Shown: one piece after another, positions 2,760 through 21,131 of the stretch
Layout: each line of letters begins with the position of its first letter
Numbering within the stretch: position 1 is the stretch's first letter
Origin: Acidimicrobiia bacterium
GTDB lineage: Bacteria > Actinomycetota > Acidimicrobiia > Acidimicrobiales > Poriferisodalaceae
Length of the DNA: 53,175 bases
Direction of reading: 5' to 3'
Assembly: GCA_022824805.1 (NCBI GenBank)
Contig: JAJDZE010000185.1
Span: 1-53,175 of the forward strand
Position numbers and translations under genes: made by a program
The notes under the pieces: model-generated
Seen by the model: the letters and a program-made list of their open reading frames with translations, nothing else
Database searches by the model: none
Told to the model about the DNA's origin: nothing

Positions 2760-4142
2760 TCAGCTTGCTTGCATCACGTGGGCATCGTGTCCGTCAGATG
2801 CGCTGTCGCGCAAGCGCCGGGTGTTCTCAGACTCGTGCCATTCAGCCGCTTCGGGCGTGTCGGTGAACTCGGTCACGACAGCGAGCCCGTCTTCTGAGTT
2901 GAGAGCGTCATGGACTTCCTGCGGAGTTGCGTAGAAGAACTCTCGGCGCAGGTTCACGAGGTTGACGCGTTGAGGGGCGAAGCGGTCGTGCAGCCGCTTT
3001 TCGAGGTCCACTGCGTCCTCGGAGAAGATCATCGCGTGCAGGTCGTATCCGAACGGCACTGACGCATCGCCGAGCTCCTTGACGCGGTCCATCGGGTCGA
3101 GCCGGCGTGTCATGCCGATCTTGACCATGCGCTCGCCGAGCGAGCCGACGTTGGAGATCACATAGACGTGTCCGGCTCGCACGTTCGCAGCCCGCTGCTC
3201 GACGGATTCCATCGAGACGTCCAGCTCTTCGAGCTTCTCCTTCAGCTCCGTCATCTCGGCGGTCTTGGAAGCCGAGTCGTCGCCTTGCTGCTGCAGCTTG
3301 CGCAGCACGCCCAGGTAGTGGCTGCGCTCCTTCTCGAGGCGCTTCTTCTCGTTCTCGAGTTCCTTGCGCGCCTTGGCCTCCTCGCGCAGGCGTGCCCGTT
3401 CGGCCTTGGCCGCCTCCTTCTCTTCCTCCTTCTTCTGCAGGAAGTCGGCGACCAGCTCCAGTTCCTTCACGCGCAGAGCGTGGTACGCGCTGCTGATCGC
3501 TATCTCCATCGGCTGCGCACCGAGCCGGTTGATGGCGTTGCGCGACTTCTCCAGCCGCGAAACGGAAGCTTCGAGCCGGAACGGACGCATCTTGTCCGCC
3601 AGCATGTCGGCCTCGTTGTTGTAGGCCCTCAGCAGCAGCTTCGAGGTGTCCTTGATCATCTTGCGGCCCTTGGCCTCCGAGTCGTTGACCGTCCACTTGT
3701 TCGTCGTGGTCGTGACGGCTCCGCCGTCCTTGGCGCTCGCCTTGATCTGGTCACGGACGGCCTTCAGCCGATCCCTGTACTCGTCGGAGTTCTCCATCGG
3801 GTGCTGATAGTCGTACACACCGATCTCCTGGAGGATCGCCGTGTCGCGCATCGCGACCACACGGTCGGCAAGCTCTCGATGCTCTGAGACGAGCCGGGCG
3901 TGCTCGTCGCTCAGCGCCGCATGCGATTCCTTGAGTTGCTCGTGCATGTGCAGCGCTTCTTCGTAGCCATCGGGCAGATAGCTCCGCATGGCGTCAACGA
4001 AGTCGAACACCCGACCCAGCTCGCCCCGCAGGACGCCGATCTCGTCTTCCATGGACTTCTTGCCGCCGATCCGTTTGTGGCTGACGGCTGCCGGGAGCCG
4101 GAAGGTCTTGGGGCCGAATGAGAGGGTGCGCTGATCTGTCAT
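2760..4142 (-). CDS. DUF4041 / GIY-YIG (T5orf172, MUG113) protein
   Basis: The protein has about 460 residues. Its N-terminal half contains a DUF4041-type segment (around ILQEIGVYDYQHPMENSDEY, then KASAKDGGA and TVNDSEAKGRKMIK). A long charged coiled coil follows, rich in Glu, Lys, Ala and Arg. The C-terminal ~110 residues form a GIY-YIG-like nuclease of the T5orf172/MUG113 type (GHVYVISNVGSLGERMVKIG, then MTRRLDPMDRVKELGDASV, later LEKRLHDRFAPQRVNLVNLR with EFF). The start is ATG 4142 (MTDQRTLSFG); a frame extension to 4160 adds six unlikely residues. Such proteins occur in phage-related and mobile regions and are predicted DNA endonucleases. The target is unknown. The gene is divergent from the small ORFs at 4422. 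Confidence 0.8.
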   Translation of the reverse strand: MTDQRTLSFGPKTFRLPAAVSHKRIGGKKSMEDEIGVLRGELGRVFDFVDAMRSYLPDGYEEALHMHEQLKESHAALSDEHARLVSEHRELADRVVAMRDTAILQEIGVYDYQHPMENSDEYRDRLKAVRDQIKASAKDGGAVTTTTNKWTVNDSEAKGRKMIKDTSKLLLRAYNNEADMLADKMRPFRLEASVSRLEKSRNAINRLGAQPMEIAISSAYHALRVKELELVADFLQKKEEEKEAAKAERARLREEAKARKELENEKKRLEKERSHYLGVLRKLQQQGDDSASKTAEMTELKEKLEELDVSMESVEQRAANVRAGHVYVISNVGSLGERMVKIGMTRRLDPMDRVKELGDASVPFGYDLHAMIFSEDAVDLEKRLHDRFAPQRVNLVNLRREFFYATPQEVHDALNSEDGLAVVTEFTDTPEAAEWHESENTRRLRDSASDGHDAHVMQAS

Positions 4143-4421
4143 GGGGCGAGATCCTTGCACGCCCTGCTCAGCTGAACCTCAGTATTTCTTGACCAACGCC
4201 GAACCTGACCCTGCCGCACGCCCGGCCTGCGACGGAACTCGCGACTGCTCAGGTGGCATCTCGTTGCTGCGGTCAACTTCGTCGGGCGGCACGACTTGCG
4301 TGTGCCATCTGCGAGTTGACGCTGACCCGGCGTACGGGCGACGCGCGTCAGCACGTGGGTGTTGCGCGCGCCATACTGCGCGTGTGGCATCGGTGTACTA
4401 CGCGGAAGGGTTCGGTTCGCC

Positions 4422-8534: not shown

Positions 8535-8899
8535 GGACACTTGGCCTCTCCCCATGTGTGCATCCCGTGGCGCCTGTTCGGATCGCCGGAGTTTCATCTC
8601 TGTAGTTTCGTGCTGTGCTGAGCGACCGTACCGTACGCGTCTGCGTACGACCGCGCAGGCTGAGCCGCCTCTGTCCGGCTGGACCGTAGTCGGCCGACCC
8701 TTGGCCGACCCCGAGAATTTTCACCGCCGTAGCTCCGTTCGGCCGCCATCGCAGCTGCGCAGTGTGCGGCACGGGGTGCCGGCACGACTGCTGACATCGG
8801 CCCCGAGACTTCTCGGCGCGTCCATGAGCCCCAAGGCTCACCCGCCTCGCAGGCGAGATGCCGCGACGAGGTGTCGGCGCTGAGTCCGAGGACGGGGAC
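8535..8899. other. 365-bp region without a recognisable gene
   Basis: No frame gives a convincing protein. It must contain the promoter of the minus-strand small gene/dGTPase operon. A short inverted repeat, cgtacgc (8632-8638) with gcgtacg (8643-8649), sits about 100 bp upstream of that start and could be an operator, but it is short enough to be chance. The region ends at the left inverted repeat of the recombinase element. Confidence 0.4.
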
Positions 8900-8916
8900 A
8901 ATTGCCGTTATCCCTC
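8900..8916 (+). repeat. left 17-bp inverted repeat of the recombinase element
   Basis: aattgccgttatccctc is a perfect inverted match to 10146-10162. It lies 115 bp beyond the recombinase stop. The flanks beyond 17 bp do not match. Confidence 0.7.
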
Positions 8917-9031
8917 ACGTTGTGCCCCCCAGCAGTCCGAGATCGCAGATCAGCCGATCCGGTAAACCGGCCGAATCCGCAGGGTACCAACGCTGTCGCG
9001 GGCCTTCTGAGACCGGGCCGCTCCGTGTGGA

Positions 9032-10054
9032 TCAGCCCATCCGGGGCGGCTCGCCGGTGCCCCGCGGGTGGTTGTAGAACTGCGCCACTGCGCCCCGGTC
9101 GGCGGTCTCGTTGCGGGTGTAGCGGGCGGGCATCGTCGGGGAACGCCACCGTCCCGCGGTCATCAGGCTGGGCAGCTCTACGCCGATGCGTGCAAGGTCC
9201 TGAGCCATGCCGACACGCGGCGAGTGCCCGCTGAAGCCGTCGCCCAGGCCGGCCGTCGCGGCTGCCTTCTTGATCCGCAGCGAGATCTGATTCGGGCTGA
9301 GCCCGAACACCCGGAGCTCCGCCGGGGCGCCATTGCGGATCGACGCAAGGGCCGCCATGGTCTGCGGCGACACGAACAGCACGGCGCCTTCGCCGTCGGG
9401 GTCGGTCTTCGAGCGCCGGATCAGCAGCCGCCCGCTGCCGTCGGGCGCCGTCTCGATGTCGCTCCAGGTCAGCGCAGCGCATTCGGAGACCCGCAGCAGC
9501 GCGTCGCGCATGAGCCTCACGAGAGCGATGTCGACGCTGCCTCGCCTGGCGGCGTTCTGTGCGCTCTCTCGTCTGCCGTTCTTGCCGAGGCGCCGTCTGC
9601 AGGCGACCGCTTCGATGGCGTCGAGTGCATCGGCGGTGAGGCCCTTCGCCTGCTTCTGGGCCTTGCCGGCCACCCGAGTCGCTCCCCTGAGGGTTCGCTT
9701 GACATCTTGGTGGTTGCACGGGTTGGGGAGGCCGCAGCTGCTGTGGACGTAGGCGATCGCAGCAGCGGCGACGCGCAGCGTGGCCGGCTTGTGCCCGTGC
9801 TGCTCGAAGCGCTCGGCCAGGTAGACGGCGACGTGCTCGGGCTCGGCGGGGACGGCTGGGCTTCCCCGCTCGTCGGCCCAGGTCACGAAGCTGCGCCATT
9901 GGCTTCTGTAGCTGCGAAGCGTGTTGCGGCTGACTTCGTGGCCGGAGAGCCCGATTCGATTCTGCGCGTCGGATGGGGTGAGCAGGACAGCTCGGGCCGA
10001 CGAGTCCATAGCCACGAGCCCCACTTCAGAATTCCGCAAATGAGGTGTTGTCAT
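9032..10054 (-). CDS. tyrosine recombinase / integrase
   Basis: The 340-residue protein has an N-terminal SAM-like core-binding domain (NTLRSYRSQWRSFVTWADER). Its C-terminal catalytic domain contains Arg I in LLRVSECAALTW, the HxxR box in SGHSPRVGMAQDL, the GRWRSPTMPARY segment that places the late Trp and Tyr, and a final Tyr in VAQFYNH; the nucleophile is probably the Tyr of ARYTRN. It cuts and rejoins DNA through a 3'-phosphotyrosine link. ATG 10054 is used here, and ATG 10009 is an alternative. It is bracketed by perfect inverted repeats, which may be its own recombination sites. The protein is complete and shows no frame damage. Confidence 0.88.
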   Translation of the reverse strand: MTTPHLRNSEVGLVAMDSSARAVLLTPSDAQNRIGLSGHEVSRNTLRSYRSQWRSFVTWADERGSPAVPAEPEHVAVYLAERFEQHGHKPATLRVAAAAIAYVHSSCGLPNPCNHQDVKRTLRGATRVAGKAQKQAKGLTADALDAIEAVACRRRLGKNGRRESAQNAARRGSVDIALVRLMRDALLRVSECAALTWSDIETAPDGSGRLLIRRSKTDPDGEGAVLFVSPQTMAALASIRNGAPAELRVFGLSPNQISLRIKKAAATAGLGDGFSGHSPRVGMAQDLARIGVELPSLMTAGRWRSPTMPARYTRNETADRGAVAQFYNHPRGTGEPPRMG

Positions 10055-10145
10055 GGGCCGAGACGGCTAGCGCATGATCCCCGCGAGCGCCCCAGGCAAG
10101 GCGCGACGGCTGCGTACTCACCAGTGGTCATTCGAGATCAGCACC

Positions 10146-10162
10146 GAGGGATAACGGCAATT
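10146..10162 (-). repeat. right 17-bp inverted repeat of the recombinase element
   Basis: gagggataacggcaatt is the exact reverse complement of 8900-8916. It lies 91 bp upstream of the recombinase start and 67 bp before the start of the type ISP-like gene, so recombination here would alter the upstream region of both genes. Confidence 0.7.
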
Positions 10163-10229
10163 TCACACGGCGGTTGACGGGGACGGCATCCGAGTCCGCC
10201 CAAGGCCGTGCGCAGGGTTGTCAAGCGGC

Positions 10230-13200
10230 ATGACCGGCGATCCCGACCGGGCCGGCGTGCTTGAACGAGCCTCCGAGACGCTGGAGCAGTACTCGCCCCA
10301 ATCGACCGATGGCACCTGGCTGGAAGAACTCACCGTCGAGGTGGCTCCGTTCTTGGCGGACTGGGATGTCGAGATCTGTTACCCGTGGGCTGAGTGGCCG
10401 TCTCGCGAAGAACACTTCCCCAAGACCACGAAGCAGGACATCGGTATCGACCTCGTGGCGCACCGGCGTTCCGACGGCCGCCCAATTGCTGTCCAGTGCA
10501 AAGCCCGTCAGCTCAATCCCGACGGCACCGGTGCAGAGATCGGCAAGGGCGAAGTGTCAGCGTTCTCGACGCCGGCCGCTAACGACCTCTTCGCAGAACG
10601 CTGGTTGGTCACCAACGGCGCCAACTCCCTCAATGCCAACGCCGAGAGCGCTATCGAGGTCAGCGGAAAGCCGATCAAGTTGGTGAATCTGGCGGCGGAC
10701 CTCACGGCCGAAGCATCCGCCGACCCGGCCGACGACGACAGTCCTCCCGGCGACGACCCAGCAGCCCCACAGACCCGCACCAGCATGCAGCGCGAAGCCG
10801 TAGAGCAGAGCGTTCGCATCCTGCGAGAACACGCCGAGACCGACTCGGGCGGGTTGCCCAAGGGACAGGCCAGGGGCCGGATCATCCTGCCGTGTGGCGC
10901 CGGCAAGACCCGCATCGCATTGCGGATCGTCGAACAGCTCACCGATGCAGGCCAGCTCTCGGTGGTGCTGTGCCCGTCGATCGCACTCGTCGCACAGCTG
11001 CGACGTGAATTCCTCCAGAACGCCGAATCCGACCTCCGGGCGATGGCCGTGTGTTCAGACAAGACCGCCGGCTACGACCCGAAGAAGGAAGGCAGCGCCA
11101 AACGGGCACTTGACCCCACCCAGGACAACAGCAACGTCAGCGCTACTGAGGTCAAAGGGCTGGTCAGCACTGATCCGCAAGAAATCGCCGACTGGATAGC
11201 TATCGGCGCCGACGACCCGCGCATCAACGTCATCTTCGGCACCTACCAGAGCGCCAGCCGGGTCGCCGAAGCTCTTGCCCTCGCAGACACCGATGTCCAG
11301 GTGCTCGTCTGCGACGAAGCGCACCGCACTGCCGCCCTGCGCCGCCATCGCAAGGCAGACGAGCAGGAACGCCTCCAAGAGTTCACGCTCTGCCACGACC
11401 AGCAGGCCTTCCCGGCCCGCTACCGCATCTACCAAACCGCCACGCCGCGCATCTACAACCACACCAACTCGCCCCGCAGGGTCGACGCATCCGAGTTCCT
11501 GGTCCGCTCCATGGACGACGAGACGATCTTCGGCGTCGAGCTCTACCGCAAGAGCTATGTGGAAGCCGTCCGCAACGGCTGGCTGTCGGACTACCGGATC
11601 ATCGCTCTCGGCGTCAACGACCCTGAGGCGTTCGCGGCAGCCAACGAGCTCGCACGCACCACCGAGTCCAAGGGCAAGTCCAAGCTCACCACGGTCGACT
11701 ACCTGCGCGGCCTGGCGCTCGTGCTGGTGATGGGCGGTGCCACCCGGTCAAGCGGCGAGCACGACGTCACGGTCGAGTCGTGCATCGCCTTCATGAACAC
11801 GGTCGACAAGTCCAAGAACATGATGAAGGACCTGCAGACCGACGCAGTCCGCGACTGGCTGGCGTCCCGCATGGACGGCGCCGAGCCCGCCGAGTTCACT
11901 TTGGAGCACCTCGACGCCACCTACAACGTCGCCAAGCGGGACAACGCCAAACAGAAGCTCGCCGCCGCGACGGCCGACAATCCGCACGGCATCGTCAACG
12001 TCGGCATCTTCGGCGAGGGCACCGACTCGCCGTCGCTCAGCGCGGTCGCCTTCCTCGAACCGCGCAAGAGCCCGATCGACGTGGTGCAGGCGGTCGGCCG
12101 GGCCATGCGCACGGCGCCGGGCAAGAAGTTCGGCTACATCATCTGCCCGATCCTCATTCCGCCCAACGACGACCCTGAGCGGTGGCTGACCAGGGCCAAT
12201 CCTGAAGAGGGCTGGTCCGAGTTGGGCCAGATCCTCCTGGCGCTGCGGGCACACGACAGCCGCATCGAAGACGAGCTCGCCGACATGCTGCAGGTGTACG
12301 TGCCGCCGCTGCAGCTGAACCAGGAGACAACGAGTCTGGTTGGGGTGGCTTCGGCGTCGACCGGCCGCATCCGCTACGGCGAGCACCGCGGCCCCATTGA
12401 CGCGGTGTTCGAGGTGGTCGAAGCGGCAGCAGCCGCCGACACTCCCCTCTCACAGCACGGCCTGACACCGGTGCGTCCCGATGACTGGACGCCTGAGACC
12501 GAGCCGACCCAGATCGTCACCGTCGCCCCGACCTCCGACGGCTCGCTGCAATTGCGCCACGACACGGTTGTGCGCAACAAGCCGAAGGCAAAGGAACCGC
12601 GCGGCCGGGTCGACGCAGATAAGACGAAGAAGCACGCCCGCAAGATGATCAACGACGGCGAGGGCAAGCCCGTGCCGTCAAAGGGAGAGCGGAAGAAGCG
12701 AGCCGCCAAGAACAAGAAACAGAAGCAGGAAGAGCACGCCCAGCAGATGCTGGAGCTGATCGAGGGCGAATTCGGCACCGACATCACGGTGAACCTGCTC
12801 GCCAAATCGGGCCTGCGTCGTGACCGCGTCAGCCGTGACCTGAACGTCCTCGAGGAGAGCGTCAACGAGGCGGCCCACCACCTCCGGCAAGACGGGTTGA
12901 AGCCAGCTCTGGATGCTCACTTCGGTCTGGACCAGCTCGCCGCGGATAAGCGCTCGGGTCAGGCCGACGGCTGCACCATTGCGGCGCTGTTGTTGATGAA
13001 CGCAGCGATGTTGCACCAGCGCATCGCTGTGGGCGGATGGCTGCGTGATGTCGAGCCGCTCGCTGTGGTCAAGAACGACGCACGCGTCGTCGAACGTCTG
13101 AAGCGCAACTGGAACCGCATCACCCGCCAAGACTTCCTGCCGGTCATCGAGCCCGCTCAGGAGGCCATCTTCGCTGTCGAAGACACAGCGAGACTTGCTG

Positions 13201-15179
13201 GATTGGAGCGGGCGCTCCGGCACCTGGCAGCCGAAGCCGAACGCATCGCCGAGACCTACGCCGACATGGGCGCCGACCATGCCGGTCCATTGTTCAACAA
13301 GGTGATGGGCAACCAGGCATCCGATGGCGCCTACTTCACCCGTCCGCCCGCAGCCACCATGGCAGCACGGTTGGCACTCGACGCCTGCGGTGATCAGGAC
13401 TGGACCGACCCGGCCACCTGGCGGGCCCACAAGTCCGTCGATCTCGCATGCGGCAGCGGCACCTTGCTCGCCGCGTTGTTGACGGAGATGAAGCGCCGGG
13501 CCCGCGAACAGGGCGCGTCGGCCAAGAAGTTGGCGAGCCTCCAGAAGCTCGCAGTGGAGGACGTGCTCAAGGGCATGGACATCAATTCGGTGTCGCTGCA
13601 ACTGGCCGCCACCCAGTTGACTGCCGGTAATGCCGACATCAAGTACAGCGGGATGGGCCTCTACCGGATGCCATACGGTCCGACCGGCGACCCGATGGTG
13701 CCCATCGCCGCCGGGACGCTGGAGCTGATCGCTGAAGACGAACTCGTGCCTCGGTCAGAGCTAGAGATGTTTGCCGGGGCAGCCCAGGGTTCGGCGGTAA
13801 AGGCCAGCTTGGGCGATCCAGAAGTCGAGCGTGGCGCGCGAGCAGTGGTAGGTGCCCGCATTGCGATCATGAACCCGCCCTTTACGAACCGGGAGAAGAT
13901 GGGCGAGAAGTTCCCGGACGCCACTCAACGACTTTTGCGCAACCGAACGGACGGCCTCGAACAGCGTTTGGTGACCGCCGATCCAGAGTTGGAGGGCATG
14001 TTCGACAAGAACTCGCTGGCACCACTCTTTGTGTTGTTGGCGGAGAAGTGCCTGCATGGAGCCAAGAGCAGTCTCGTTCTCATCCACCCGACGATCGCCC
14101 TAACGAACTCGTCAGGAGTTCATGAGCGACGGGTTCTAGCCAAGAGATTTCATGTGCACACCATTCTGACTTGCCATCAGCCCGGCAACATCAGTCTCAG
14201 TCAGAACACGAACATCAACGAGAGCATCGTCGTGCTAGGTCGCCCGGGCAACGGTTCGCAGTCGACGCGATTCGTTGCGCTAGACCGCTTCCCTACGGAC
14301 GATTCTGAGGTCGCAGAGGTGTTCGCCGCAATCGAGGAACGCGGCATCGGGGTGCTCTCCGATGGCTGGGGAGAAGTATCCGAATGGCCTGCCGACCGCG
14401 TACTGCACGGTGATTGGACGGCCGCGATTTGGAGATCGCCTGGTCTCGCCGATGCGGCGGCACGATTCGCCGCTCACGATGCGCTGATGCCACTAGCGGA
14501 ACGAGGTCTACAGGTCCACGCCGCTGGTAAACACTCCATGAGCGGCTACCGCCGGTTGAAGGCCAAGACGCGCGCGTCCTTCCCGATCCTCAAGAGCAAG
14601 GGAGCTGACGGGCAGTTGCGAATCGAGGCCGTGCCTGACGAACAATGGGAATGGATACAGGGAGGCAAGCCGCCGATCCTGGATAAGTCGGGTCACCTGC
14701 TTGTGACGGCTGGCCAGGACACGAGCACTGGGCGCGTCACCGCCGTCGCGTCAAGGACCGCATACGTCGGTTACGGCTGGATGCCCATAACAGGCCTGAC
14801 CATCGAACAGTCCAAGGGCGCCGCCGTGTTCCTCAATTCGACAGTGGGACGGCTGCTGCTAATGCGAACCCCTGGCCTCAAGCTCAACTTTCCGAAGTAC
14901 AACCCGGCGGTGTACAACGAACTTCCGATTCCGAACCTCTCCGACTCGAACGTCGGCTCGACGCTCGCCGACTGCTGGACCGCAACCCGTCGCATGCACG
15001 TGCCGCAGTTCCGTGACGGCGAGTGTGAAGTCCGCGAACTTTGGGACGCTGCCGTCTGCGCCGCGCTCGACTGGGACGAAGCCGAGATCTCTGCGCTGCG
15101 TAAGCTTCTCCACGCCGAACCCCACGTCCGCGGCCTCACCTACGGCCAGTTCACCGACCGACTCCCCCCGCTCGGATGA
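10230..15179 (+). CDS. single-chain restriction-modification enzyme, type ISP-like (nuclease-helicase-methyltransferase)
   Basis: About 1649 residues from ATG 10230; TTG 10218 is an alternative start. Domains in order: a Mrr-like PD-(D/E)xK nuclease (QDIGIDLVAHRRSDG, then AVQCKAR, about residues 68-92); an SF2 helicase with Walker A LPCGAGKTRIAL near 219, CDEAHRTA near 359, and motif VI QAVGRAMRT near 620; a charged linker with Lys-rich coiled coil near 780-860; and an N6-adenine methyltransferase with motif I SVDLACGSGTLLAAL near 1069 and motif IV NPPF near 1213. About 400 C-terminal residues could be the target recognition domain. This order matches type ISP enzymes such as LlaGI and LlaBIII, which translocate on DNA and cut after head-on collision. 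NPPF in place of NPPY is an accepted variant. Specificity cannot be read. Confidence 0.85.
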   Translation: MTGDPDRAGVLERASETLEQYSPQSTDGTWLEELTVEVAPFLADWDVEICYPWAEWPSREEHFPKTTKQDIGIDLVAHRRSDGRPIAVQCKARQLNPDGTGAEIGKGEVSAFSTPAANDLFAERWLVTNGANSLNANAESAIEVSGKPIKLVNLAADLTAEASADPADDDSPPGDDPAAPQTRTSMQREAVEQSVRILREHAETDSGGLPKGQARGRIILPCGAGKTRIALRIVEQLTDAGQLSVVLCPSIALVAQLRREFLQNAESDLRAMAVCSDKTAGYDPKKEGSAKRALDPTQDNSNVSATEVKGLVSTDPQEIADWIAIGADDPRINVIFGTYQSASRVAEALALADTDVQVLVCDEAHRTAALRRHRKADEQERLQEFTLCHDQQAFPARYRIYQTATPRIYNHTNSPRRVDASEFLVRSMDDETIFGVELYRKSYVEAVRNGWLSDYRIIALGVNDPEAFAAANELARTTESKGKSKLTTVDYLRGLALVLVMGGATRSSGEHDVTVESCIAFMNTVDKSKNMMKDLQTDAVRDWLASRMDGAEPAEFTLEHLDATYNVAKRDNAKQKLAAATADNPHGIVNVGIFGEGTDSPSLSAVAFLEPRKSPIDVVQAVGRAMRTAPGKKFGYIICPILIPPNDDPERWLTRANPEEGWSELGQILLALRAHDSRIEDELADMLQVYVPPLQLNQETTSLVGVASASTGRIRYGEHRGPIDAVFEVVEAAAAADTPLSQHGLTPVRPDDWTPETEPTQIVTVAPTSDGSLQLRHDTVVRNKPKAKEPRGRVDADKTKKHARKMINDGEGKPVPSKGERKKRAAKNKKQKQEEHAQQMLELIEGEFGTDITVNLLAKSGLRRDRVSRDLNVLEESVNEAAHHLRQDGLKPALDAHFGLDQLAADKRSGQADGCTIAALLLMNAAMLHQRIAVGGWLRDVEPLAVVKNDARVVERLKRNWNRITRQDFLPVIEPAQEAIFAVEDTARLAGLERALRHLAAEAERIAETYADMGADHAGPLFNKVMGNQASDGAYFTRPPAATMAARLALDACGDQDWTDPATWRAHKSVDLACGSGTLLAALLTEMKRRAREQGASAKKLASLQKLAVEDVLKGMDINSVSLQLAATQLTAGNADIKYSGMGLYRMPYGPTGDPMVPIAAGTLELIAEDELVPRSELEMFAGAAQGSAVKASLGDPEVERGARAVVGARIAIMNPPFTNREKMGEKFPDATQRLLRNRTDGLEQRLVTADPELEGMFDKNSLAPLFVLLAEKCLHGAKSSLVLIHPTIALTNSSGVHERRVLAKRFHVHTILTCHQPGNISLSQNTNINESIVVLGRPGNGSQSTRFVALDRFPTDDSEVAEVFAAIEERGIGVLSDGWGEVSEWPADRVLHGDWTAAIWRSPGLADAAARFAAHDALMPLAERGLQVHAAGKHSMSGYRRLKAKTRASFPILKSKGADGQLRIEAVPDEQWEWIQGGKPPILDKSGHLLVTAGQDTSTGRVTAVASRTAYVGYGWMPITGLTIEQSKGAAVFLNSTVGRLLLMRTPGLKLNFPKYNPAVYNELPIPNLSDSNVGSTLADCWTATRRMHVPQFRDGECEVRELWDAAVCAALDWDEAEISALRKLLHAEPHVRGLTYGQFTDRLPPLG

Positions 15180-15592: not shown

Positions 15593-17227
15593 ATGCGTCT
15601 TGAGTCAATCCATTTGCGGGACTACAAACGATTCACGGACTTGCGCATCGAAGAACTTCCGAAGTCCGCTCGACTGGTGATATTGACAGGTCCAAACGGG
15701 TCGGGCAAATCGTCCCTGTTCGATGCTCTTCTGTTCAAGGCGAACAATGAACCTAGAGTGCACAACCCGCACCTAGGGGACGAACTCCAGAAGTATTACT
15801 ACAAGACACAAGAAGAAGTCGAACAGCGAAGGGCAGGCCAGAATCTATGGAATCAAATTGATGTCCAGTTTCACGACGGACAGCCCGCTAGCGGTTCATG
15901 GGCAAGTGCATTTAACATTAGATCGCCGTATCGAAACGAACCTGAGTTCACCGTCTCCGGTGTAAGCCGAGTCGAGCCCGCCCATACGAGCCGCAGATTC
16001 GAGAGGATCATCGATCCCGACCAAGCGGTCTCAGACAACTACCGAAGGCTCACATGGAAACGTCTCACCGATCTAGATAGCGACGCGGCAGACGATATGA
16101 CTTTCGGTCAATACCGCACAACGGCAATCAGGGAACTTCAAGAGGCGATCCGCACCCTGTTCCCGAATCTCCAGTTACAGGATTTCGGAGGAGTAACAGG
16201 AGGCGGGGGCTTTCGATTCAGCAAAGGAGCTGCCAACGATTTTCCATATAAGAATCTGTCTGGTGGCGAAAAAGCCGCCTTTGACTTGCTTTTAGACATA
16301 TTCGTGAAGCGTGGAGAGTATAAAGATGCGATCTACTGTATCGATGAGCCTGAGGCACATGCAGCAGTCGCTATACAGGGAAAGCTCCTCGAAGCACTGT
16401 TGTCTTTGCTCCCTGCTAAATCACAATTGTGGATAGCAACGCACTCGATCGGATTCGTGCGCGCCGCGTATCGGATGGCTCAGCGAGGCGATGAGGTCAT
16501 TTTTCTAGACTTCGCCGCGGATGATTTTGATGAGGCAGTCGTATTGACACCCTCCCCGGCTGGACGGAATTTCTGGCGTAGGACCTACCACGTAGCACTG
16601 GACGATCTTGCGGCCCTCGTTGGACCGAGTAGGATCATCCTCTGTGAAGGCAATCGCGAAAGGCCGCCCGAAGGATTTGACGCGCAGTGTTATTCTAAGA
16701 TTTTCGAGGGCACTCATGGGGACACGATGTTCCTCTCACGCGGCGGTTCCACGCAAGTGGAACGAACGGAAGATCTGGCTGCCGTCATAGAGGCGCTTCT
16801 GGAAGGCGTCGAGATTCTGCGTCTGATAGATCGCGACGATATGACCGACGAGGTGCGAACGATACGCCTTGAGAATGACAACATGCGTATATTGTCTCGG
16901 CGTGAGATAGAGAACTTCCTGTATGATCCCGCCGTCCTTACAACATTCTTCCGGTTACATGGTTACTCCGAGCTTCCGGCTTCGATTGAAGAGCTGCTCC
17001 CTGACCCGGCTCACGGAGACATGCGGCAGGTGAATCGCGAGGTGTTGAACAAAGCGCGACAGATGCTGCCTCGCATGCATCTTGGCAACGACCGAAAGGA
17101 ATTCGCGCTGGTGCACTTGGCACCAGCCCTACGAAACACACCAGAGGTATTTCATAAGCTGGAGGAAGATGTATTCGGGTTGCCGGAAAGAACAGAACAG
17201 GTTGTTATCAGAGACAACCAAGTATGA
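15593..17227 (+). CDS. AAA ATPase with TOPRIM nuclease domain (OLD-like)
   Basis: The 544-residue protein starts at ATG 15593, preceded by a strong ggagagga; a TTG 15 nt earlier is in frame but unlikely. It has the ABC-type ATPase set: Walker A GPNGSGKSS (residues 33-41), signature LSGGEKAAFDLL (from 222), Walker B IDEPEAH (near 250) and H-loop ATHSIGF. A C-terminal TOPRIM-like nuclease follows, with IILCEGN (acidic E near 351), DRDD (near 412) and REIENFL. Proteins of this plan, related to OLD, act in antiphage defence as ATP-regulated DNA nucleases. The DNA is visibly more A+T-rich than its neighbours, indicating recent transfer. The stop overlaps the TIR gene (ATGA), so the pair is one system. 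Confidence 0.82.
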   Translation: MRLESIHLRDYKRFTDLRIEELPKSARLVILTGPNGSGKSSLFDALLFKANNEPRVHNPHLGDELQKYYYKTQEEVEQRRAGQNLWNQIDVQFHDGQPASGSWASAFNIRSPYRNEPEFTVSGVSRVEPAHTSRRFERIIDPDQAVSDNYRRLTWKRLTDLDSDAADDMTFGQYRTTAIRELQEAIRTLFPNLQLQDFGGVTGGGGFRFSKGAANDFPYKNLSGGEKAAFDLLLDIFVKRGEYKDAIYCIDEPEAHAAVAIQGKLLEALLSLLPAKSQLWIATHSIGFVRAAYRMAQRGDEVIFLDFAADDFDEAVVLTPSPAGRNFWRRTYHVALDDLAALVGPSRIILCEGNRERPPEGFDAQCYSKIFEGTHGDTMFLSRGGSTQVERTEDLAAVIEALLEGVEILRLIDRDDMTDEVRTIRLENDNMRILSRREIENFLYDPAVLTTFFRLHGYSELPASIEELLPDPAHGDMRQVNREVLNKARQMLPRMHLGNDRKEFALVHLAPALRNTPEVFHKLEEDVFGLPERTEQVVIRDNQV

Positions 17228-17595
17228 CGATCGATGAACACTACATTCCTACGGCATTTCTCTGCTATGCCCGACACGATGATGTAAGCGATGACGGTCG
17301 AATTGCAAAACTTCGCGTGCTCATACAACGGGAAGTACAAGCTACCGATGGAGAGTCCTTCGCTATTCTTCAAGATACGTCAGACTTCTTGGTCGGCATG
17401 CAATTCCGCGATGAAATCGATGCAATTCTTGAGAAGGCATCTACTCTTATCTCGTTTGTAACCACATCGCTGTTCAATAGCTCCAACTGTCGTGCCGAAA
17501 TTTCGCGTTTTCGACAGTGTTCTGAATCCGAGCTGGTTCAGCCGCCAATCTTCCCAACCCGGCGCTTCGCGCTTGCGCGTGGTGTAGCTGTGTGA
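17224..17595 (+). pseudogene. TIR-domain effector, truncated by insertion-sequence DNA
   Basis: ATG 17224 overlaps the AAA-TOPRIM stop (ATGA). About 96 residues form a good TIR N-terminal half: TAFLCYARHDDVSDDGRI, then the FAILQDTSDFLVGMQFRDEI region, and the SSNCRAEI motif carrying the probable catalytic Glu (residue 92). TIR effectors cleave NAD+ or sense and make signal nucleotides in antiphage systems. From about residue 100 the frame runs into unrelated sequence and stops at 17595. ISL3-type DNA begins next to it, so the C-terminal part of TIR and any downstream domain are lost. The short open frame may still be translated but is unlikely to be functional. Confidence 0.75.
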
Positions 17596-18380
17596 GGGTC
17601 ACGGTCTGAATGGGAGGGACTCCCCAGAATCGGTGGTGGTTGTAATCCCGAGTTCTGGTGGATCCCTGTGAGGATTGACGCTATTCGCGCGTTGCATGTG
17701 GTTGTCGGCTTGAGTGTTGGCGTGACGGTGACCGGTGTGAGGGACCGCGACGGCGACCCTTTGGTGATCGGGATCGAGCTGGCTGGGCGGCCGTGCTGTG
17801 TTGGCGCGATCGCCGCTGGCGGTGCCCCGAAGGGTCGTGCGCGGTGGGCACGTTCATCGACCAGGGCCCCGCAGTCGCGCCGACCAGGGCGCGGACGGCC
17901 AGCCGGGCGGCGCGTCACGCGACCCGCCGCGCCGGCAAGGGCAGAGCGATCAGTGATATCGCCGCGGAGATCGGCTGCGGGTGGCACACCGCGATGGCTG
18001 CGGTGCACCGGTGGGGCGCAGCGCTGCTGGACGTCGACACTGAACGCCTCGACGGGGTCATTGCTTTGGGCCCCGACGAGATTTTGATGTTCCGCCGCGG
18101 CCGGTACCGCGAAAAGCACTGGGGCACCACCATCGCGGGGCACCCGCCGCGGCAGGCTGCTCGACATCGTGCCCGGTCGCAGCGCCGACGGGGCCACCGC
18201 ATGGATCCGAGCGAGATCGTCGCGGTGGCCCAAGCAGGTCCGCTGGGGCGTGATGGACCTGTCGGGGCCGTATCGCATGACGTTCACCGACGCTCTGCCG
18301 CACGCCCGCCAGGTCGCTGACCCGTACCGGGTGATCAAGCTCGCCAACTCGGCCGTCGACGACGTGCACCACCGGCCCGA
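17596..18380 (+). mobile_element. ISL3-family insertion sequence remnant
   Basis: Several frames together recover an ISL3-family transposase. The frame from GTG/ATG near 17668 gives VTGVRDRDGDPLVIGIELAG and the CC zinc-binding start. The frame around 17920-18160 gives RAGKGRAISDIAAEIGCGWH, ALLDVDTERLDGVIALG and the DEILMFRRGRYREKHWGTT segment. The third frame, around 18200-18370, gives VRWGVMDLSGPYRMTFTDAL and RQVADPYRVIKLANS. At least three frameshifts and loss of the C-terminal half make it non-functional. A hairpin-like ggactccccagaatc with gagttctggtggatcc (about 17619-17670) may be the IS left end. It truncates the TIR gene. Confidence 0.75.
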
Positions 18381-18539
18381 ACGACCGACAGTGCACTCAA
18401 GGCGCTCGAACCGACGCTCCTATCAGGTCACATTCGAACCGACCCGCTGGTGCGCGTCCCCGACACGACGCAGGCCGACAGATCGTTTTCAAGACACAAA
18501 GCCAGCGAAGAGTCGAGCCAAGCCCACACCATGCCAGAG

Positions 18540-18786
18540 ACACAGCTACCAGTATGAGTGCGAAGAGCCCCATATCTGCATCACGCCTGCCGCGCCCAGT
18601 CTCAACGGCAACGTTGAGCGTTCACACCGCATCGACGCCGAAGAGTCCTCTGCGGGCTCCTCGACGGCGACGGCATCGACGACACCGACATCCTCAACGA
18701 CCGCCTGCGCGCCTGGGAGGACAACCTGCAACTTCGAACGACCCCACGGCGGCCTCGACGGCCAAACCCCCTATGAGAGACCCTGA
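18540..18786 (+). pseudogene. IS481-family transposase C-terminal remnant
   Basis: The + strand encodes PAAPSLNGNVERSHRIDAEE, the conserved end of the rve/DDE core of IS481-like transposases. A shifted frame gives the equivalent of LDGDGIDDTDILNDRLRAWE, and the first frame resumes with FERPHGGLDGQTPYERP before a stop. Two frameshifts within 250 bp and no upstream catalytic region show a dead fragment. The DNA from 18381 to 18539, between this and the ISL3 remnant, has no recognisable coding content. Confidence 0.75.
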
Positions 18787-18813
18787 CCTCAACCGCCTAC
18801 GTCAGCAGCACAC

Positions 18814-19443
18814 CTAGGTGACCTCCTCTAGCCGTGTGCGAGCGAGATGTTCGAGCCGCTGAGCCTGGACCCAGAGCGTGCGGCGAATCCCCGTCTGAAC
18901 TTTCCGTTCGCTGATGACGCGCGCCAGATCGGCAATGGTCCGTGCGCGCCGAGCGATTCGAATGTCGGGGTGCTCACGCTTCGTGCGGGACGCGTCCGGC
19001 AGGATTTCACCTCGCACCGAACTGGGCAGCTCAATCAACTCGGCCTCTGGAATGTCGCCTTCATTGAGCACGGCGCTGAACAGAGAATCCGACAACGCCT
19101 GTTGGTACACGGTGAACTCCGCGCGGTCGAGCGTGTCCTTGATGACTTCGTCGCTCGCTTCTTGCAGGTCCCAAAACGGCCACATCTCGATCTCCGCGAC
19201 CTCAAAAGGGTCGAGGACTCGCATCGCCACAGCGTCGGTGCGCTGATTCGTCAGATGCCGTCTGATTCTCGTTCGCAGCTGCTCTCTGGTTTGACCGACG
19301 TAGATCGGTTCTCCGTCATAGTCGATGAACAGGTACACGCCAACCTTGCAGTCGCCTGCGGCTCTGCCATCCTCTCCAAGCAAATTGAGGACGCGGTCGA
19401 CGCCCTCGTAGAGCTCCGTGACGTCAAGAGGCTCGTCCACCAT
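18814..19443 (-). CDS. GIY-YIG nuclease, probable type II restriction endonuclease
   Basis: The 209-residue protein starts at ATG 19443 (MVDEPLDVTELYEG). Its GIY-YIG module is VGVYLFIDYDGEPIYVGQT, followed by the catalytic Arg in LRTRIRRHL, and a possible metal-binding Glu in DRAEFTVYQQ. The C-terminal half is helical and basic. It is adjacent to and overlaps a C5-methyltransferase gene on the same strand, so I infer a GIY-YIG restriction enzyme paired with its methylase, as in Eco29kI-like systems. I see no close similarity to Eco29kI beyond the motif. Its first ~64 codons lie inside the methylase open frame, discussed under that gene. Confidence 0.75.
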   Translation of the reverse strand: MVDEPLDVTELYEGVDRVLNLLGEDGRAAGDCKVGVYLFIDYDGEPIYVGQTREQLRTRIRRHLTNQRTDAVAMRVLDPFEVAEIEMWPFWDLQEASDEVIKDTLDRAEFTVYQQALSDSLFSAVLNEGDIPEAELIELPSSVRGEILPDASRTKREHPDIRIARRARTIADLARVISERKVQTGIRRTLWVQAQRLEHLARTRLEEVT

Positions 19444-20498
19444 CGGCTCAGTGCCCGAGCGAGCCAGTGATGACCGAGCCACTCGATGACCGGTACGCAC
19501 ACAGCGTCGCCCAACGCAAACATCGCTTGTCGCTCCGTAACAGCCCCGTAGTCAAGGTCACCGGCCCCTTGAAGCCTGGCGTACTCGTCTCGGCTCATCC
19601 AGCGCACATCCGCTGTGCCTCGTCCTGCGCGGACGATGGCCTGACGAGACGAACCGCCACGGGTCGTCCTGAGCGCCCCCGCAATCTCGTCCCCGCGAAT
19701 CTCCCATACCGCACGACCGTCGCGAGTGCGTCGGTACGCACCTCGCCAGCTCACTGTCTGGGATTCCCGATAGCAGCGAAGCCGGGCTTGCTGAAGATCG
19801 GATAGGGAATCGAAGAACGCATCGCGCTTGTCGCCCGTCCACCACTCGCCGCCGCTGTCTGCTACATCGGCTAGGCGAGTGTCGTCTCGCCGAGGCGGTG
19901 GCTCAACCGTCACAGCCGCGGCACCCTTGACGGCGAGCAGGAACACACGCGGGCGGCTCTGGGGAACGAACGCGGCTGCATCCACCGTCACGTCGCTCAC
20001 TTGGTAGCCGAGGTCGCCCAGGAGCTCAACGACAGTCCTGAAGTCTTGGCCGCCATTAGCCGTGAGGAAGCCCGGGACGTTCTCCACGAGCACAGCGTGC
20101 GGTGCCCGCTCACCCATTTCGGCGATGATCCGGACGAAATGGTGGATCAAGCCAGAGTGTTCGCCAGCGAGACCGGCGCGGGCACCCGCCAAGGACAGGT
20201 CCACGCATGGAAACGAGGCCGTAGCTAGCTCGACATCAGGAATCTGTTCGCCACAAATGTCACGAATGTCCCCGACAACAAGTGGCTCCTCGCCCCAGTT
20301 CGCTCGATAGAGCGCTGCCTTGGTCTCGTCGATGTCGTTCGCGAACACGGTTCGGACACCGCAACGCTCAAGGCCAGCACGCACCAACCCCATGCCGGCG
20401 AAGAACTCCGCTGCGCGCGGCCCCGCCTGCTGGTCATGGACCGGGAACAGCCCCATCTGCCGAAAACCAGTGCCCGGGATCGGACGGTTCTGCGCCAT
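19251..20498 (-). CDS. dcm: DNA (cytosine-5-)-methyltransferase
   Basis: The chosen start is ATG 20498 (MAQNRPIPGTGFRQMGLFPV), with gaggg about 11 nt upstream; the frame is open to 21035, but that part looks non-coding. C5-methylase motifs are: I, AEFFAGMGLVRAGLE; IV, SFPCVDLSLAG with the catalytic Cys; VI, VLVENVPGF; VIII, PQSRPRVFLL; TRD region RTTRGGSSRQAI; IX/X, YARLQGAGD and ALGDAVCVPVIEWLGHH. The domain is complete by about 19455. The frame then runs out of sense through the nuclease gene to 19251, a 193-nt overlap. A +1 shift would end it at TGA 19448-19450, 4 nt before the nuclease ATG, so a small indel may have removed the native stop. Confidence 0.88.
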   Translation of the reverse strand: MAQNRPIPGTGFRQMGLFPVHDQQAGPRAAEFFAGMGLVRAGLERCGVRTVFANDIDETKAALYRANWGEEPLVVGDIRDICGEQIPDVELATASFPCVDLSLAGARAGLAGEHSGLIHHFVRIIAEMGERAPHAVLVENVPGFLTANGGQDFRTVVELLGDLGYQVSDVTVDAAAFVPQSRPRVFLLAVKGAAAVTVEPPPRRDDTRLADVADSGGEWWTGDKRDAFFDSLSDLQQARLRCYRESQTVSWRGAYRRTRDGRAVWEIRGDEIAGALRTTRGGSSRQAIVRAGRGTADVRWMSRDEYARLQGAGDLDYGAVTERQAMFALGDAVCVPVIEWLGHHWLARALSRWWTSLLTSRSSTRASTASSICLERMAEPQATARLACTCSSTMTENRSTSVKPESSCERESDGI

Positions 20499-21131
20499 GC
20501 GCGAACCCTCGTCCAGCAGCAGGGCCATCAGCGGAGGGGGGCGGTCGAAGTCATGCGAACGACAGTAGGCGTCGGGTGTCACAAACCGAGCGATACCGGC
20601 CGTAACCTCAATGCGAGACGCACCGCGAACCCCGCATGCAACCCGAGCCGGCGAGCGAGGCCGCGTCTGACAGTCCCTCGAGCTGGCGCACCGGTTGGGT
20701 GCCACCGGTCGCAGCGGCGCCCTGGTGAACGGCGTGCTGGCAGCCTCCGACGCCCGGTGACGCCGTTCGTCGCCGCGTGCGCCGCCTACGGAGCGATCAG
20801 CCTGGCCTGCGTGCTGTAGGCGCATCGGCACCGGCAGCCGACTGTTCCCGCGCATCGCTCCCCGGCATCTTGAGCGGCCGCGCCTGACAGCCCGTCGTCG
20901 CGCAAGCCGTTCCCTGAGCTCGTCTCGCGGCCTCACGCTCGCAGCGCTCGGAGAGCGCGCGAAGACATGCGTGATTCGAGGCCATTCCTTTGCAGATTCA
21001 AAGAGATAGAAAATCATTGGCATGATCTGAAACAACGCGTCTAGAACTCACTGCGAGTCCTCCCGGCGACCTCGTGGGAACGAGACGCCAAGGAATCCGA
21101 CGTCACAGGACGAGTTCGAAGGAGATGAGCG
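20499..21131. other. 633-bp boundary region without a recognised gene
   Basis: No frame gives a family I know. Two short + strand frames have protein-like ends: ELAHRLGATGRSGALVNGVL stopping near 20760, overlapped by TPFVAACAAYGAISLACVL stopping near 20819. They may be debris of a membrane protein gene. The stretch 20960-21060 is A+T-richer and may contain the promoter of the lipoprotein/Tad operon; gaaggagatgagcg just before 21132 supplies its ribosome site. This region is the probable right edge of the defence island. Confidence 0.35.

Follow-up and report, generated by a model that had tools for sequence, protein, structure and literature searches.

A Cre-like recombinase gene between inverted sites, a probable switch in front of exchangeable restriction genes in Acidimicrobiia

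The recombinase segment and its surroundings

The window analysed here, a 53,175-nucleotide stretch of DNA from an Acidimicrobiia bacterium, contains a 1.26-kb segment (8900-10162) that is bounded by perfect inverted 17-mers and has a recombinase gene as its sole gene (Table 1). The left repeat reads AATTGCCGTTATCCCTC and the right one is its exact reverse complement. The arrangement is as the earlier note had described it: the repeats are exact, a single complete tyrosine recombinase ORF lies between them, and the right site precedes the ATG of a large restriction gene (at 10230) by 67 bp. By chance, 0.03 matches to the 17-mer were expected per window at up to three mismatches, and none of the shuffled sequences contained two. 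At the same threshold no third copy was present in the window, and a genome-wide search of the 3.69-Mb genome returned no further copy with fewer than three mismatches. For comparison, we used ten congeneric genomes (Acidimicrobiia MAGs, referred to by G numbers).

Table 1 Features of the inverted segment and the adjoining genes in the window
Feature	Position	Strand	Remarks
Site A outer arm, GGGGAC	8894..8899	+	GGGGAC or AGGGAC in the window, G002, G006, G008 and G009
Recombination site A, 17-mer	8900..8916	-	minus-strand reading GAGGGATAACGGCAATT
Site A core dyad, GGGACAA-TTGCCG-TTATCCC	8895-8901, 8902-8907, 8908-8914		putative arm, spacer and arm
3' non-coding segment end, recombinase stop to site A	8917..9031	.	
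Cre-like tyrosine recombinase, 340 aa	9032..10054	-	Phage_integrase 1.2e-11, Phage_int_SAM_1 2.5e-5
Recombinase 5' leader, inside the segment	10055..10145	.	partly conserved across genomes; presumed location of the recombinase promoter
Recombination site B, 17-mer	10146..10162	+	GAGGGATAACGGCAATT
Site B outer arm, TCACACGGC	10163..10171	+	kept before unrelated restriction genes
Single-polypeptide restriction-modification enzyme, 1649 aa, type ISP-like order	10230..15179	+	presumed target
AAA ATPase related to AriA/PtuA-type defence ATPases	15593..17227	+	downstream of the restriction gene

In site A, two 7-bp arms that match at six of seven positions surround an asymmetric 6-bp sequence, TTGCCG, which we assign as the putative spacer. 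Sites A and B have only the inner arm and the spacer in common, and the outer arm of B fits the dyad poorly. About 6-8 bp outward of each 17-mer are also conserved, with a sequence that differs by side (GGGGAC at A, TCACAC at B). The outer arm of site B is the same in G008 as in the window, and reads ACACACGGC in G006, TCACACAGC in G002 and TCACACTGC in G009. Beyond 6-9 bp on each side, the flanks of the window are unrelated to those of its relatives, and its A flank could not be aligned. Since the outer arms are side-specific and conserved although the DNA farther out is unrelated, they probably belong to the sites.

The recombinase carries the R-K-H-R-H/W-Y catalytic domain of tyrosine recombinases (Cre/Xer superfamily), and the catalytic residues assigned from the motifs (R188, K216, H277, R280, W303 and Y312) are invariant in six orthologs. 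Its ORF is intact in six of six genomes, as far as assembled, and the gene is, judged by a dN/dS of 0.21-0.49, under purifying selection. The cores of the sites are identical in five genomes, in which the DNA of the segment has diverged by 7-10%. Plasmid-borne relatives of the recombinase had less than 40% identity among the matches listed. A phage or viral origin of the cassette was considered and rejected, as the cassette had no match in phage records and neither the 17-mer nor the protein family had one in viral contigs.

The protein encoded next to site B contains Mrr_cat_2, ResIII and Helicase_C domains, with Mrr-type nuclease, helicase and N6-methylase motifs and a C-terminal part. Residues 28-683 match the PADLOC model REase_MTase_IIG (1.3e-98), while the methylase part gives a weak match to MTase_II (4e-4) and has DLACGSG and NPPF motifs. 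In a type ISP enzyme a target-recognition part would come next, and none was recognised in this protein. The C-5 cytosine DNA methylase encoded at 19251-21035 (DNA_methylase, 9e-44) supports the view of this neighbourhood as a defence island. Several other genes were recorded in the window. A DUF4041/T5orf172 protein (2760-4160) strongly matches the PD-Lambda-1 defence model (1.1e-115), and an unusual fusion-like protein with acetyltransferase and PIN-type domains (435-2702) weakly matches the candidate defence model PDC-M11A. The AAA ATPase gene is followed by a short, seemingly truncated TIR-domain-like ORF (17224-17595; TIR_2, 2.1e-5, below the Pfam cut-off), and overlapping ORFs on both strands at about 17600-18800 are possibly a degraded insertion element.

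Orientation of the segment in congeneric genomes

Orthologs of the recombinase, with 84-88% protein identity, were found in five of the ten congeners. Four of these (G002, G006, G008 and G009) have exactly one inverted 17-mer pair each, with two inner mismatches in one of the copies in G006, G008 and G009. In G007, the contig ends inside the recombinase gene; one site with two mismatches is visible, and the 3' end of the gene joins an A-like flank (80% over 169 bp). Four of the five congeners lacking an ortholog have no site, and the fifth, G005, has a single weak match with two mismatches. In G002, an insert of ~100 bp whose ends form perfect 17-bp inverted repeats (CAGGCTGCTGAAAAAGT; L042 5960-6058) abuts the B site inside the segment; it is probably a MITE, and it would make the switch longer at its 5' end.

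Naming the flanks A and B after the left and right sides of the window, we found that the 3' end of the recombinase gene joins A in the window and in G002, and B in G006, G008 and G009. Between G002 and G009, homology extends into both flanks, which are collinear: flank A has 73% identity over 55 bp (BLAST, 53 bp at 91%) and flank B 87% over 60 bp (BLAST, 284 bp at 89%). The 1.24-kb segment between them, in contrast, can be aligned only when reversed, at 90%. Likewise, flank A of G006 and G008 is collinear with that of G002 and the segment is reversed; across G006, G008 and G009, the reversed alignments to G002 have 90-92% identity. As the segment is reversed while the flanks remain collinear, sequence comparison indicates that inversion in place has happened in this genus. 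The differences at the sites are partitioned in the same way: the inner ones (CCCTC versus CCCCT) move with the segment and the outer ones (GTCCC versus TCACA) remain with the flank, which places the crossover within the common 15 bp, GGGATAACGGCAATT. The tree of the segment and recombinase is weakly supported; we therefore conclude that at least one inversion is required and claim no higher number. Both orientations were seen between species, and inversions could be rare.

These comparisons bear directly on whether the unit is a switch or a mobile element. The compact layout, with terminal inverted repeats around a recombinase gene, would also suit a minimal transposable element inserted near restriction genes in either orientation, and the unit now lies in different contexts, with window flanks that resemble those of its relatives for no more than 6-9 bp. 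Yet the many copies with target duplications by which the earlier note would have recognised a plain mobile element did not turn up: among the genomes searched there is one cassette per genome and there are no solo sites, and by eye the ends of the window segment show no target-site duplication. A search of the genus with flank A for a cassette-free version of the same A-B junction gave weak partial matches only. Moreover, GGGGAC and TCACAC keep to their own sides whichever way the segment faces; a symmetric element, on inserting, would leave no such pattern. We regard such an element as distinctly improbable; both orientations with the flanks in place, together with the single copy and the absence of other sites, favour the invertible switch, one of the two options given in the earlier note. 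An integrated phage or the remnant of an integrative element, with the 17-mers as its attachment sites, would account for the integrase homology of the enzyme (phrog_1, 4e-15). An integrated circle, however, is bounded by attachment sites in direct orientation, and the inverted 17-mers contradict this explanation; no tRNA was found in the window either, leaving it barely tenable.

Restriction genes beside site B and the proposed switch

In every case, the gene on the B side is a large restriction gene whose start codon lies 37-67 bp after site B, but its type differs: type ISP-like in the window, type III in G002 and G009, and type IIG in G006 and G008. In G002, a type III Res gene is followed by a type III methylase gene, and G009 has the same Res start; in G006, a type IIG gene occurs with a helicase gene, and an AAA ATPase gene similar to that of the window follows this module; G008 has the same IIG start. 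Unrelated B genes occur in G006 and G009, two genomes with the same flank A and the same orientation, which indicates that the gene behind the switch was exchanged. An ortholog of the restriction gene of the window, 87% identical, occurs in G003 without a site or a recombinase ortholog, and the homology between the two begins at the start codon.

We consider it likely that 8900-10162 is a self-contained inversion module that switches the restriction gene. According to this model, the Cre-like recombinase would recombine the inverted sites A and B, each a short dyad of two ~7-bp arms flanking the asymmetric 6-bp spacer TTGCCG, and thereby flip the segment that carries its own gene. Because the start codon follows site B at a distance of 37-67 bp, flipping would alter which end of the segment adjoins the 5' leader of the restriction gene, and its most likely effect would be ON/OFF switching of that gene. 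Where the 3' end of the recombinase gene points to B (G006, G008 and G009), the two genes are co-directional, and a single transcript starting at the recombinase promoter could cover both, the putative ON state by read-through. With the 5' end toward B, as in the window and G002, transcription would face away from the restriction gene, which would be OFF or low; the window may thus represent the OFF state. In G006 and G008, 37 bp separate the site from the start codon. A complete promoter does not fit into this distance; the restriction gene is therefore probably transcribed from a start in or beyond the segment, and from the sequence a promoter outside the segment is unlikely in these two genomes. 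The promoter position, the ON state, present-day switching within populations and a role in phage defence are what we infer from this arrangement, as is the effect of inversion on expression. The segment in front of exchangeable restriction genes would then probably act as a random switch of defence.

The effect of inversion might, however, be something other than a promoter flip: downstream expression could change through the transcript of the recombinase gene or through an element at the end of the segment, for termination or in the leader, or inversion could serve mainly the self-regulation of the recombinase. Scans of the segment and leader gave no convincing promoter, no terminator-like structure was reported between the recombinase stop and site A, and there is a precedent in the flagellar switch of C. 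difficile, where inversion is reported to act with Rho factor and not by promoter orientation alone (PMC7446863). Nothing indicates a specific termination element, though, and the fact that unrelated restriction genes all start 37-67 bp from the site speaks for these genes as the target. On balance, we judge an effect of this kind rather unlikely. The segment could also be a decayed or frozen switch that inverted in the past and is now a non-flipping relic beside a defence island. The restriction genes adjoining three cassettes (G006, G008 and G009) are indeed broken; against this stand the intact recombinase ORFs with their dN/dS and invariant catalytic residues, and site cores that have remained unchanged despite the divergence of the segment, which makes a relic improbable.

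The broken genes are worth considering in relation to orientation. In G006 (L041), the restriction gene has an in-frame stop, and in G008 (L044) and G009 (L043) homology is lost abruptly before the contig end in a manner resembling insertion-sequence junctions. The gene is thus broken wherever the recombinase gene has its 3' end toward B (three genomes), so that every putative ON genome has a broken restriction gene, and intact in both genomes with the opposite orientation, the window and G002 (3/3 versus 0/2, one-sided exact p = 0.1, n = 5). With five genomes and this p value, the association between breakage and the 3'-toward-B orientation is suggestive and serves as a lead only.

Distant relatives, comparable systems and significance

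A similar cassette was found in G153, a genome of another family, whose recombinase gene is ~66% identical at the DNA level. It is bounded by inverted 15-mers, TATAAGTTGCGTTAT, with the layout ATATAA-GTTGCG-TTATAT and the same geometry. The 3' end of the recombinase gene faces a TcmP-like/DUF5131 pair. Its two genes match PDC-M30A and PDC-M30B, both models of candidate defence systems, and the pair is a candidate for a fourth defence system. In the same genome, a direct repeat of the left site lies 42 bp from it, at the start of the contig (L084 1-60), and might allow a second crossover position. No flanking inverted repeats above chance or shuffles were found in 27 more distant relatives (order and class). 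Among genus paralogs of ~40-48% identity, none exceeded shuffles except in G004, where a 12-bp pair (ACTTGCATACAC; L108 2706-2717 and 3848-3859) surrounds a 329-aa recombinase paralog and could be another, unrelated switch or chance.

In the Hin system of Salmonella, the recombinase gene lies inside the inverted segment, which adjoins the upstream side of the gene that is switched; in fim-type switches, the inverted element does not include the recombinase genes. The segment described here resembles Hin in that a short stretch between inverted sites carries its own recombinase just upstream of the presumed target. Hin belongs to the serine recombinases and, with an enhancer, switches flagellin genes; the enzyme of the window, by contrast, is a Cre-like tyrosine recombinase, and so no serine invertase of the Hin/Gin kind, and its segment lies before several unrelated restriction types. 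In contrast to fim, the segment consists almost wholly of the recombinase gene. The short inverted repeats and the small segment upstream of the regulated gene are features in common with the FimB/FimE switches and other tyrosine-recombinase invertons (PMC6083910 and PMC5903667); the history of Hin is reviewed in PMC11868660.

Cre of phage P1 provides the closest solved structures by sequence (phmmer, E about 1e-16; ~64 bits over two stretches) and an arm-spacer-arm site layout, but the proposed spacer has 6 bp rather than 8, and the cre gene is not part of a segment inverted by Cre. Among restriction systems, the hsdS inversion by PsrA/CreX also joins a tyrosine recombinase acting at repeats to restriction-modification diversity (PMC7096588 and PMC4190663). 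PsrA shuffles coding sequence for target recognition, whereas here no inverted coding segments of a specificity gene are present and the segment holds the recombinase gene alone; with no restriction coding sequence inside it, an effect on expression is expected. A further difference from PsrA is that the restriction system type itself is exchangeable. PinQ inversion affecting phage T2 is comparable as a recombinase-driven inversion tied to phage resistance, although PinQ is a serine recombinase that inverts 1.8 kb within a different cryptic prophage, with no expression switch by restriction genes (PMC12529663).

Restriction made phase-variable by inversion of hsdS or by slippage at repeats has been described, as have promoter invertons close to surface genes (PMC7096588, PMC4190663, PMC5903667, PMC11868660 and PMC11892184). 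In the literature searched, which was accessible in part and comprised papers outside subscription, we found no single-gene recombinase inverton reused before several restriction types. The recombinase switches known from restriction systems for the most part reshuffle specificity genes within one system type. We give about even chances to the broader proposal that the cassette is a portable, self-contained Cre-like inverton, a general defence switch not tied to any single system and conferring stochastic on/off control on unrelated anti-phage systems, which would include type ISP, type IIG, type III and TcmP-like/DUF5131 systems. The six-genome set offers a ready natural experiment on orientation versus restriction-gene integrity. 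If the proposal is true, stochastic control of defence could be acquired as a plug-in, separately from the weapon itself, and the cassette would allow a simple test of bet-hedging on costly restriction systems in the little-studied class Acidimicrobiia.
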